Part shown: one piece after another, positions 5,676 to 7,815 of the stretch
Numbering within the stretch: the stretch's first letter is position 1
How the letters are laid out: the number at the start of each line of letters is the position of its first letter
NCBI GenBank assembly: GCA_017399665.1
Contig: JAFQBR010000341.1
Coordinates: forward strand, 1 to 7,815
Direction of reading: 5' to 3'
DNA: 7,815 nucleotides
DNA from: Clostridia bacterium
Lineage (GTDB): Bacteria; Bacillota_A; Clostridia; Christensenellales; Borkfalkiaceae
Position numbers and translations under genes: made by a program
The notes under the pieces: generated by a model
Database searches by the model: none
What the model was told of the DNA's origin: nothing
What the model saw: the letters and a program-made list of their open reading frames with translations, nothing else

Positions 5676-6164
5676 ATGGTAAACGAAAAAAATCCCGAAA
5701 TTTATACCGAAGATGAAGATTTAATTGATTTAGTAGACGACCAAGGCAGACATTTAAAATTCTACCACGTTGGCAGTACGGAATATTTAAACAAGTGGTA
5801 CGCATTCTTTATGCCCGCTGAAGATATTGAAGGCCTTGCAGACGAAGAGGTTGTTATTTTTGAAGTTGCTCAAGATGAAAATGGCGACGAAATTTTACTT
5901 CCTGTTGAAGACCACGCTCTACTTGAAAACGTATACGAGCAGTTCTGTAAAGAAATGGAAGAAGAAGCTGACGCAGAAGAAGCATTAGAGCAAGAAGGCG
6001 GATGTTGTTGCGGTCACCACCATGGTGATGAAGAAGAATGTGATTGCGACCACGAACACTGCAATCACGACCATGAACACGGCGAAGATTGCGGATGCGG
6101 TCATCACCACGGCGACGGACATTGCAAGCACGGCGAAGGTCACGGTCATTGCAAAAAACACTAA
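5676..6164 (+). CDS. DUF1292 (YrzB-like) protein with a long His/Cys-rich metal-binding tail
   Basis: This is a 162-residue acidic protein. Residues about 11-95 match DUF1292 in pattern (EDLIDLVDDQGRHLKFYHV, KWYAFFMPAED, EVVIFEV, LLPVEDHALLENVYEQF) and position after ruvX. An acidic linker (EEEADAEEALEQE) leads to a tail at 110-162 with 10 cysteines and 16 histidines in 53 residues plus many Asp/Glu. The tail contains two copies of CGHHHGD (112-118 and 141-147). Such tails bind Ni, Zn, Co or Cu in metallochaperones and stores; here the metal is unknown. The DUF1292 core has no established function. The ribosome binding site AAAGGAG ends 6 bases before ATG 5676, and a strong terminator follows the stop, so ruvX and this gene form a two-gene unit. 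Confidence 0.88.
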   Translation: MVNEKNPEIYTEDEDLIDLVDDQGRHLKFYHVGSTEYLNKWYAFFMPAEDIEGLADEEVVIFEVAQDENGDEILLPVEDHALLENVYEQFCKEMEEEADAEEALEQEGGCCCGHHHGDEEECDCDHEHCNHDHEHGEDCGCGHHHGDGHCKHGEGHGHCKKH

Positions 6165-6313: not shown

Positions 6314-6342
6314 TTGACAACACAAAATTACTATGCTATCAT
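6314..6342 (+). promoter_or_regulatory. Extended -10 promoter of the tyrosine leader and transporter gene
   Basis: TTGACA (6314-6319) and TATCAT (6337-6342) are 17 bases apart, with TGC at 6334-6336 making an extended -10. The predicted start is near 6349-6351, about 26-28 bases upstream of the leader peptide ATG. A/T-rich DNA upstream is consistent with a strong promoter. This is the only good promoter seen between the terminator at 6208 and the transporter gene. Confidence 0.85.
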
Positions 6343-6376
6343 AAGTGCGTAAATTGATTTGACGGAGAGAACTTTA

Positions 6377-6436
6377 ATGTTTAAAACCACTTACTCTTAT
6401 TACTATTATTATATCGGTAATTTAAGGATGCAGTAA
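6377..6436 (+). CDS. Tyrosine-rich leader peptide (MFKTTYSYYYYYIGNLRMQ)
   Basis: This is a 19-codon reading frame with ATG at 6377 and TAA at 6434-6436. GGAG at 6364-6367 lies 9 bases before the ATG, a proper ribosome binding site. Tyrosine is encoded at codons 6, 8, 9, 10, 11 and 12 (TAC, TAT, TAC, TAT, TAT, TAT), six of 19 residues with five consecutive. It is followed by an intrinsic terminator whose stem begins 41 bases after the stop, a distance close to that of the trp leader. Such a run is the hallmark of an attenuation leader that senses charged tRNA-Tyr. The peptide itself is probably of no use to the cell and is translated only as a sensor. Confidence 0.85.
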   Translation: MFKTTYSYYYYYIGNLRMQ

Positions 6437-6477
6437 TTGTTCACAGCGTCAAATTTTCCTATGGGATTTTTTTTACC

Positions 6478-6510
6478 GACCTGTAAGCAGTACTGCTTAT
6501 AGGTCTTTTT
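6478..6510 (+). terminator. Attenuator terminator upstream of the substrate-binding protein gene
   Basis: GACCTGTAAGC (6478-6488) pairs with GCTTATAGGTC (6495-6505) in an 11-bp stem with one G-U; an extra A-T pair (6489-6494) is possible. The loop is AGTACT. It is followed by TTTTTATTT. It lies between the promoter at 6314-6342 and the transporter ATG at 6597, so it must be read through for the gene to be expressed. Confidence 0.92.
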
Positions 6511-6596
6511 ATTTATCAAATATTTACCAATTTAGAAAAAACGGGCAACCGTAAAATTTTTATATAAACAGCCATAACGGCAAAAGGAGAAAACTT

Positions 6597-7571
6597 ATGA
6601 AAAAACTACTTTCTTTATTCTTGGCAACAGTAACCGCTCTTACCTTAACTGTTTCTGCAACTGCATGCGGTGGCGCAAGCGACGATAACGTTGTTAACGT
6701 TGGCATTTTACAGGTTGCAACTCACTCTGCATTAGATGATGCAAGATTAGGCTTTAAAGAGGTAGTTGACGCTTGGGCAAAAGAAAATGGCAAAACTGTT
6801 AAATATAAAGAGGAAAATGCTGTTGGTGATTCTAATAATGAGCGTACTTTAGCTAACTTGTTAGTTAGTGAGCGACATGATTTGCTGTTAGGTATAGCAA
6901 CTTCGTCAGCACGTGCTTTGGCAAACGCAACAAGCAGTATCCCGGTGCTTTTCACGGCAGTTACAGCGCCTGAAGAAGAAGGGCTTATTTCAAATAACGT
7001 AACAGGCACAAGCGACTTAAACCCTGTTGTTGAGCAAGTTGCTCTTATAAAAGATGTCGTTCCCGGTATTACAAAAATAGGCTTTTTATATAACTCATCA
7101 GAAAATAACTCTGTTATTCAGTATAATCTTGCAAAAGCAAAAGAAAGCGAATTGGGTATAGAATTAGTAAATTATACAGCTCATTCTGTAAGTGATATAA
7201 ATACAGTGGTAAGAGGTATTGTTTCAGATGGAATACAAGCTGTTTACGTTCCCACCGATAACTTAATGGCAGAGAATATGATTACAATATGTTCGATCCT
7301 TCATGAAGCTGGTATTCCTGTTATTGGTGGCGAAGAAGGCGTTTGTGAGAATGGTGAAGCAGTTGCTACTTTAGGTATTAGCTACTTTGAACTTGGCAAA
7401 CAAACGGGAGCAATGGCAGTTGCTATTTTAAGCGGAGAAAAAACAGCTAAAGATATTTCTTTTGAATATTACAATAAACAGCCTTCTTTCTTTATTAACG
7501 AAGAAAATGCAGCCGCAGCTGGATTATCTGAAAATTTAATTGCTTCATTAAAGGCAAAATACAACGTATAA
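6597..7571 (+). CDS. ABC transporter substrate-binding lipoprotein, TrpX/ABC_sub_bind (DUF534) family; predicted tyrosine or aromatic amino acid uptake
   Basis: This 324-residue protein starts with a lipoprotein signal peptide: positive MKK, a hydrophobic core and a lipobox ending SATAC, with Cys24 the lipid-modified residue. The mature part (VVNVGILQVATHSALDDARLGF onward) has the two-lobed periplasmic-binding fold of the ABC_sub_bind family (COG2984), including VLFTAVTAPEEEGL, KIGFLYNSSENNS, IQAVYVPTDNLM and PVIGGEEG segments. Family members deliver amino acids such as tryptophan to a membrane permease and ATPase. Here the tyrosine-rich leader upstream suggests tyrosine as ligand; that is inference. 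The ribosome binding site AGGAGA (6585-6590) precedes ATG 6597. A strong terminator follows within 15 bases, so the permease and ATPase genes usually found directly downstream are not in the window; they may lie further on or elsewhere. Confidence 0.9.
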   Translation: MKKLLSLFLATVTALTLTVSATACGGASDDNVVNVGILQVATHSALDDARLGFKEVVDAWAKENGKTVKYKEENAVGDSNNERTLANLLVSERHDLLLGIATSSARALANATSSIPVLFTAVTAPEEEGLISNNVTGTSDLNPVVEQVALIKDVVPGITKIGFLYNSSENNSVIQYNLAKAKESELGIELVNYTAHSVSDINTVVRGIVSDGIQAVYVPTDNLMAENMITICSILHEAGIPVIGGEEGVCENGEAVATLGISYFELGKQTGAMAVAILSGEKTAKDISFEYYNKQPSFFINEENAAAAGLSENLIASLKAKYNV

Positions 7572-7581
7572 TAATTTTTAC

Positions 7582-7615
7582 AAAAAGCAGGCCAATTTGC
7601 CTGCTTTTAATTTTT
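7582..7615 (+). terminator. Intrinsic terminator after the substrate-binding protein gene
   Basis: AAAAGCAGGC (7583-7592) pairs perfectly with GCCTGCTTTT (7599-7608) around the loop CAATTT, followed by AATTTTT to 7615. The A-run at the 5' side makes it potentially bidirectional. Confidence 0.93.
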
Positions 7616-7815
7616 GGCTCTGTCACAACAAAGGGTTGATAAAATAAGTTTTATATACTTCGTAATAGTTTGTTATTTGCAAATTTTTACAATTCCAACG
7701 TACGGCAAGTACGCTTCCTTGCAAAAATTTACAAATGCTTGACATCTCTTACTCGCATCTAAAACTTCTTTTAGTCTTTAACTAAGGAACTTTTATCTCT
7801 TAAAAAAAAAATCAA
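7616..7815. repeat. Non-coding, structured sequence; possible edge of a dispersed or mobile repeat
   Basis: No gene with a start codon and recognisable product is seen here on either strand. The stretch begins with GGCTCTGTCACAACA right after the terminator, a sequence that looks like an insertion-sequence terminal repeat, though I cannot name a family. Within it is a large inverted repeat: arms 7675-7692 and 7719-7736 match at 16 of 18 positions, and the two mismatches become G-U pairs on the - strand transcript, which would favour a - strand RNA hairpin. Inside sits a perfect small hairpin CGTAC-GGCAA-GTACG (7699-7713). A 34-codon open stretch without a start codon (7777 down to 7673, - strand) crosses it. 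It runs off the window, so its far end is unknown. Confidence 0.4.

Follow-up and report, generated by a model that had tools for sequence, protein, structure and literature searches.

The enterobacterial trp, his, leu and phe leader-peptide attenuators are represented by Rfam leader families, and the element described here shares their design: a leader rich in the sensed amino acid, a terminator, a 2:3 antiterminator and a putative protector. It differs from them in its run of Tyr codons, in a protector that lies upstream of the leader start codon, and in its target, which is a transporter and not biosynthesis. A scan of the window (the whole stretch of clostridial DNA that was analysed, 7,815 nucleotides long) at Rfam E-values up to 5 yields five matches, all of them weak, below gathering score and clear of the leader, and no match to the enterobacterial or any other family overlaps the element. 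For aromatic amino acids, an aroR-aroF attenuator of Corynebacterium glutamicum was reportedly described by Neshat et al. in 2014, and Camakaris et al. are said to have proposed in 1980 a Tyr-tRNA attenuator of aroF in E. coli aroF-tyrA.

In the text available on it, the C. glutamicum attenuator resembles the present element in its aromatic leader (Phe-Tyr-Phe) and aromatic pathway; it differs in belonging to an actinobacterium and to a biosynthesis operon, and Tyr availability is without effect there (PMC11802643). The aroF proposal is listed by one source as a Tyr-tRNA attenuator on the strength of the 1980 E. coli paper (PMC2659441), and another refers to a hypothesis of attenuation at aroF of E. 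coli (PMC8632094). It invokes Tyr-tRNA sensing as the window does, but concerns a proteobacterium, and the excerpts of these sources describe no Tyr-run leader (PMC2659441, PMC8632094). The uORFC-13-1 motif of Acholeplasma aroF likewise puts an upstream ORF and a terminator at an aromatic gene, although that ORF is credited with at least one Phe, the excerpted text mentions no Tyr run, and both gene and organisms are different (PMC8632094). His leader peptides are known in firmicutes (PMC2965389, PMC9413887) and a leucine attenuator in Staphylococcus aureus (PMC5794164). As excerpted, these sources present leader-peptide attenuators as well, some of which replace T-boxes, but for different amino acids and different genes (PMC2965389, PMC9413887, PMC5794164). 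Streptococcus suis trpXYZ is, in the portion of the source at hand, a TrpX-type transporter turned on by amino-acid shortage through tRNA charging, but by way of a Trp T-box riboswitch that reads UGG (PMC9382623), whereas the window has no T-box match, and the best motif match upstream of its gene has 5 mismatches. For actinobacterial tyrosine operons, the excerpted source reports that no conserved RNA structure was found upstream (PMC1262725).

Firmicutes are a T-box stronghold, and no demonstrated leader-peptide tyrosine attenuator was found in the open PMC literature, where most subscription papers are absent. The first-pass annotation of this DNA had called a leader-peptide tyrosine switch in such an organism unusual and possibly undescribed. 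The open literature searched bears this out for demonstrated tyrosine cases, but the claim has to be narrowed: his and leu leaders are known in firmicutes, and a Tyr-tRNA attenuator has been listed for aroF, as far as the excerpts of these sources go (PMC2965389, PMC9413887, PMC5794164, PMC2659441). What is new here is the sensed amino acid, the host lineage, the target and the exchange with T-boxes; the kind of attenuator is already known.

A DUF1292 gene lies upstream of the element and a substrate-binding-protein gene downstream (Table 1), with 34 nt from the end of the promoter -10 to the leader start codon. Much of what the first-pass annotation had read from the letters was recovered: a 19-codon ORF with its own ribosome binding site and six Tyr codons, an antiterminator right after the stop codon, and a putative protector ahead of the start codon. 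The antiterminator also makes the predicted 12 pairs with the terminator 5' arm, with one bulge and one mismatch, at a duplex energy of -11.9 kcal/mol, or -13.7 with flanks. Two of its boundaries shift. The terminator, given as 6478-6510, does have its stem 41 nt past the leader stop, but the hairpin itself (12 bp, -17.1 kcal/mol) ends at 6505 and the T tail comes after. The protector is an exact complement of 6447-6454 (CGTCAAAT), as claimed, but this 8-bp core is only part of a longer, interrupted 1:2 pairing. The nearby relative L003 has a protector with the identical 8 bases and an identical partner. In the interval between segment 2 and the terminator, TTTTCCTATGG (6454-6464) is common to the window, L003 and the more distant L008. 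Could it be a small hairpin or a pause site?

Table 1. Predicted parts of the leader element and the regulated gene (positions in the window).
Feature	Position	Strand	Remarks
Sigma-70 type promoter TTGACA-17-TATCAT, extended -10	6314..6342	+	11/12 matches
Putative protector, segment 1 ATTTGACG	6357..6364	+	upstream of leader start codon; exact reverse complement of 6447-6454
Leader ribosome binding site GGAG	6364..6367	+	
Leader peptide ORF MFKTTYSYYYYYIGNLRMQ	6377..6436	+	stop TAA 6434-6436; 19 codons, six Tyr
Sensed codons Tyr-Ser-Tyr5 (putative)	6392..6412	+	
Segment 2, antiterminator strand TTGTTCACAGCGTC	6437..6450	+	begins immediately 3' of leader stop codon
Segment 3, terminator 5' arm	6478..6489	+	
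Segment 4, terminator 3' arm (6494-6505) and T tail (6506-6510)	6494..6510	+	
Ribosome binding site AGGAG of regulated gene	6585..6589	+	
Regulated gene, ABC transporter substrate-binding protein, PF04392, TrpX-like	6597..7571	+	profile matches

The protein of the regulated gene matches PF04392 at 201.2 bits (threshold 25.9; E 3e-59). It scores 230.9 bits with the TrpX equivalog NF041285, under the curated cut-off of 390, and solved structures related to it by sequence are 6hni, 3lkv and 3lft. Genes for a PF02653 permease and an ABC ATPase come next after the binding-protein gene at loci L001 and L002; the 244 bases 3' of the window's gene, up to the window's end, show neither. A terminator-like hairpin is visible by eye at about 7585-7606, 3' of the gene, and the contig end beyond it (7608-7815), which is without a permease gene, unlike L001 and L002, gives the impression of being perhaps a mobile-element remnant. 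The DUF1292 protein upstream (5676-6164) carries a long His/Cys/Asp-rich tail, possibly metal-binding, and in L002 it likewise stands ahead of the orthologous gene.

The element very probably acts by ribosome-mediated transcription attenuation, sensing charged tyrosyl-tRNA and turning on an aromatic amino-acid ABC transporter upon shortage, a reading built on sequence and folding models. Transcription would begin at about 6349, as judged from the promoter sequence. With ample tyrosyl-tRNA the ribosome would reach the stop codon and cover segment 2, leaving the 3:4 hairpin to halt transcription in the cell at about 6510. With scarce tyrosyl-tRNA it would stall within the Tyr run and leave segment 2 free for segment 3; the terminator would then not form, and the binding-protein gene would be transcribed, together with the permease and ATPase genes where these come after it (L001, L002). 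If the leader is not translated at all, the 1:2 pairing should allow the terminator to form in at least some cases. The cargo would be tyrosine, or aromatic amino acids more generally. Tyrosine sensing in the control of such a transporter is plausible because the T-boxes of its homologues, described below, read as Trp, Tyr or Phe specific.

The model of the proposed switch gives the ribosome a 13-nt footprint, counted from the first base of the A-site codon, and takes the terminator 3' arm as not yet made. In the window, the terminator 5' arm is predicted to be paired upstream with a probability of 0.90 when the ribosome stands at Tyr codons 4-6, of 0.17-0.55 at codons 1-3, of 0.22 at the stop codon and of 0.47 without a ribosome; the protector thus reduces 2:3 pairing in the absence of translation but leaves some of it. 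The contrast between a stall at Tyr 4 and the stop codon has p 0.024 against shuffles. The outcome depends on the footprint, only codons 5-6 being effective at 10 nt and codons 3-6 at 17 nt. TCGGTAA, right after the Tyr run (6414-6420), has its complement, TTACCGA, at the terminator's foot (6473-6479), and this may be why stalls at the early codons do not favour 2:3 in the model. Across 22 elements (the window's and those of its relatives, introduced below), the mid-run stall minus stop difference is 0.31, and shuffled spacers give 0.08 (combined p 1e-4). When every codon of the run is averaged in, the combined p is 3e-5, and p is 0.195 for the window by itself. The difference is reversed in L037 and L105a and absent in L008, L038, L040 and L041, six of the 22, and in L039 it is not above its shuffles. 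In the model, then, an antiterminator that excludes the terminator, is freed by a stalled ribosome and is masked by one at the stop codon appears for the group as a whole and, in the window, for the late Tyr codons.

Energies of the alternative folds, a check that the first-pass annotation had proposed, give a divided answer for the window taken singly. The fold of 6348-6514 is strong (z -3.7; 0/200 shuffles equally low), but against shuffled spacers the 2:3 duplex is not significant (z -1.3, p 0.13), nor is the 1:2 pairing (z -0.7). The strong pairing statistics stem from the relatives pooled and not from the window by itself.

These relatives are homologues drawn from genome contigs and from species genomes of the same genera, families and order; two are clostridial MAGs, one of them from yak cecum. 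The examined set is 138 loci plus the window, 139 in all, and is a subset of the family: weaker matches, among them several fragments, some tens of low scorers and others beyond the matches listed, lie outside it. Two genes appear under two names each, L001 also as L004 and L002 also as L003, and each is counted once. Leaders rich in Tyr and Phe, with ATG starts, precede 21 of the 139 genes (20 and the window), making 22 elements. Four of the 22 loci that passed the scan were excluded by eye for a GTG or TTG start or for want of a clear run (L094, L121, L122, L125), and L037 and L041 were added despite a leader more than 300 nt upstream of the gene. The nearest relatives of the window on the tree have the leaders MTFVNVYYYSYYYIGGIKMQ (L003, whose protein is 69% identical to the window's), MFTYTYYYYYYIGDLMMR (L005), MKTNMVKFAFASYYYFYYSFISL (L004), MKTIISISFAYYYFYYSIITL (L034) and MLFIAKASFYFYFYRGLSC (L006).

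The 22 leaders are 16-33 residues long and variable in the position of the run and in the C-terminus. Tyr makes up 23% (105/449) and Phe 16% (70/449) of the residues counted, together 39%, with L082 counted from its run only. Both Tyr codons are in use (TAT 39, TAC 66), so it is the amino acid that is kept and not the bases. The annotation had expected conserved Tyr codons in a variable surrounding; in close orthologues an aromatic run is indeed kept while its flanks vary, but most relatives mix Phe with Tyr. The other parts recur with the leader. Ribosome-site words from a loose list have a match in 22/22 elements, and a promoter match of 10-12 of 12 lies upstream of the leader in 20 of the 22, against 5/440 shuffled controls; the exceptions are L089 and L105b, the latter a second tandem copy that lacks its own strong promoter. 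Every one of the 22 also has a terminator hairpin, with energies from -12.1 to -24.5 kcal/mol and a stem beginning 23-64 nt past the leader stop, and 2/176 shuffled regions attain -12 kcal/mol in the same scan.

For each element, the stretch reaching from 36 nt upstream of the stop codon as far as the terminator was matched computationally against the 5' arm and loop of a terminator, either its own or that of another element. Own pairs average -12.9 kcal/mol vs -9.3 when swapped, none of 20000 permutations is as low, and the result also holds in a thinned set of 18. Arm sequences vary between groups, yet match inside each locus, as in L082 (GCTACGATAG with CTATCGTAG) and L004 (CTTTGTTGTAGTA with GTACCGCAACAAAA). 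Against shuffled spacers the group gives a Stouffer z of -8.6 for 2:3 and of -7.1 for 1:2, both with relatedness ignored; the 1:2 pairing is a perfect 8 bp in the window and L003, and in L005 and L038 the 2:3 energy is no better than with shuffled spacers. Sequence and comparison establish what the element consists of, that its parts recur together and that its pairing arms match each other. The comparison of 2:3 helices among related genomes that the annotation had called for thus came out in favour of its attenuator reading, and the 22 terminators, the preference for own arms and the kept aromatic run all argue for it.

T-boxes occur within the same gene family. The T-box motif, at no more than one mismatch, is found upstream of 45/139 genes, against 4/139 in shuffled controls. 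Leaders precede 21/139 genes, both sensors 0/139 and neither 73/139 (Fisher p 2e-4, uncorrected for relatedness); divergent sensors may be hidden among the 73. Rfam at gathering score gives five T-boxes in the 40 loci scanned, among them L042, which the one-mismatch motif had missed. With L042, L043 and L075, which match at two mismatches, added to the 45, there are 48 candidates whose specifiers, taken after GAA, were read: 19 for Trp, 7 for Tyr, 4 for Phe and a further 7 for Phe if a shift of one base is allowed (our own reading), with 11 left unassigned. In all, 37/48 would specify Trp, Tyr or Phe. The seven with a UAC specifier for Tyr (L042, L043, L062, L075, L091, L101, L104) agree, within this gene family, with the remark of the annotation that firmicutes mostly use T-boxes for tyrosine.

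How are the two sensors distributed on the tree? It has 49 rows, a chosen part of the 139, with L080, L090, L104 and L137 left out. The window's clade holds 12 rows with leaders in all (support 100/99); in two other trees L080, which has neither sensor, falls inside this clade on a long branch. L100 groups with Phe T-box genes (98/95) and L089 with a group of Tyr and Phe T-boxes (97/86). The leader label changes 7 times, at least 5 of the changes being forced by supported branches, against a shuffled mean of 16; some changes adjoin genes with neither sensor, and not T-box genes. No leader occurs in the Trp T-box clade (4 rows of the 49-row tree, 19 rows in another tree), and leaders lie outside it, in the part of the tree with Tyr and Phe T-boxes. 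Since leaders were gained or lost repeatedly, and L100 and L089 group directly with T-box genes, leaders and T-boxes appear to have replaced each other. We consider it fairly likely that a clade of Clostridia controls an aromatic ABC transporter by a tyrosine-specific leader-peptide attenuator of a type unestablished in the open literature searched, with repeated gain or loss of the leader, leaders and T-boxes apparently swapping as sensors of the same amino acids, and the sampled Trp T-box branch leaderless. A single transporter gene family with both would let one follow, as a natural experiment, the replacement of one tRNA-charging RNA sensor by another, and it suggests a tyrosine or aromatic class of substrate for the PF04392 transporters of uncultured Clostridia.

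Could AT-rich DNA give Tyr/Phe runs and hairpins by composition? Aromatic codons are AT-rich, a crude block shuffle of the 138-locus scan leads one to expect 3.4 matches, and the antisense strand matches in 7 loci. The sense strand nevertheless matches in 22/138 loci, 18 of them accepted as leaders, and dinucleotide shuffling of the 350 nt upstream of the window's gene, repeated 1000 times, never gives a short ORF with 6 Tyr within 8 codons. With the promoter and terminator controls above and the clustering of leaders on the tree, chance is refuted for the group and scarcely conceivable as an explanation, although single weak members could still be due to it. A functional micro-peptide ORF followed by the plain terminator of a short transcript would also account for promoter, ribosome site and terminator. 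It would not account for the fact that what relatives keep is chiefly the aromatic run, nor for a stop-proximal segment that fits its own terminator arm better than swapped ones, a match that a plain terminator does not need. Nineteen leader-bearing genomes were moreover scanned for runs of six aromatic codons, and among the matches listed 42 stretches were considered (30 taken automatically, 12 chosen); apart from transporter leaders (L160, L166, L167), none of these 42 is a leader of similar make. A micro-peptide is very improbable. Of these stretches, L172 and L173 were ruled out as TAC/TTT repeats; L142 has an aromatic run a short way upstream of a gene, but the run lacks a preceding start codon.

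An arrest peptide of the TnaC type, in which a free aromatic amino acid stalls the ribosome and the gene is induced by plenty, has a precedent in TnaC and tryptophan, according to the excerpted source (PMC8429421), and the leader stop codon does lie near segment 2. Inspected by eye, however, the 22 leaders keep no residue pattern outside the run and no conserved residues at a fixed distance from the stall site, and homologous genes are preceded by T-boxes, which report uncharged tRNA and hence shortage; we regard arrest as improbable. It is harder to set aside a general aromatic attenuator for Tyr and Phe together, with the near-lack of Phe in the window's run a matter of drift. Phe and Tyr are mixed in most relatives (7 Y/6 F in L035, 4 Y/5 F in L036, 3 Y/4 F in L006), the leader of L007 is Phe-rich, and AroR of C. 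glutamicum (Phe-Tyr-Phe) is described as responsive to Phe but insensitive to Tyr (PMC11802643). Set against this are the window, L003 and L005, each having 6-7 Tyr but just one Phe (codon 2 or 3), and the Tyr T-boxes on homologues, so that a general aromatic sensor is possible but doubtful. Because most relatives mix the two amino acids, pure tyrosine sensing is best supported, as judged from codon content, for the window, L003 and L005 only.

Several loci have leaders of unusual make. Of the two homologous binding-protein genes in genome G108, L007 has a leader rich in Phe (MKTVNFTFVFRFFFNYCLCQ) and L054 one rich in Tyr. At L105 (genome G611), two complete aromatic leaders with their terminators stand in tandem, 307 to 97 nt ahead of the gene start. 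The leader of L100 (genome G450), MKRYYGIANYWFWFSFTMRHSKVDL, starts 201 nt upstream of the gene and has two Trp codons besides Tyr and Phe; it is possibly a three-way aromatic sensor. A class-level sample of 29 new loci (L183-L211) adds three T-box motifs and, with the weak TTG-start L196 uncounted, three further leader-like ORFs (L194, L198 and L200), which were judged by eye and kept outside every statistic; MKRRFFYYYYYYFSPAVECCAANI is an example.
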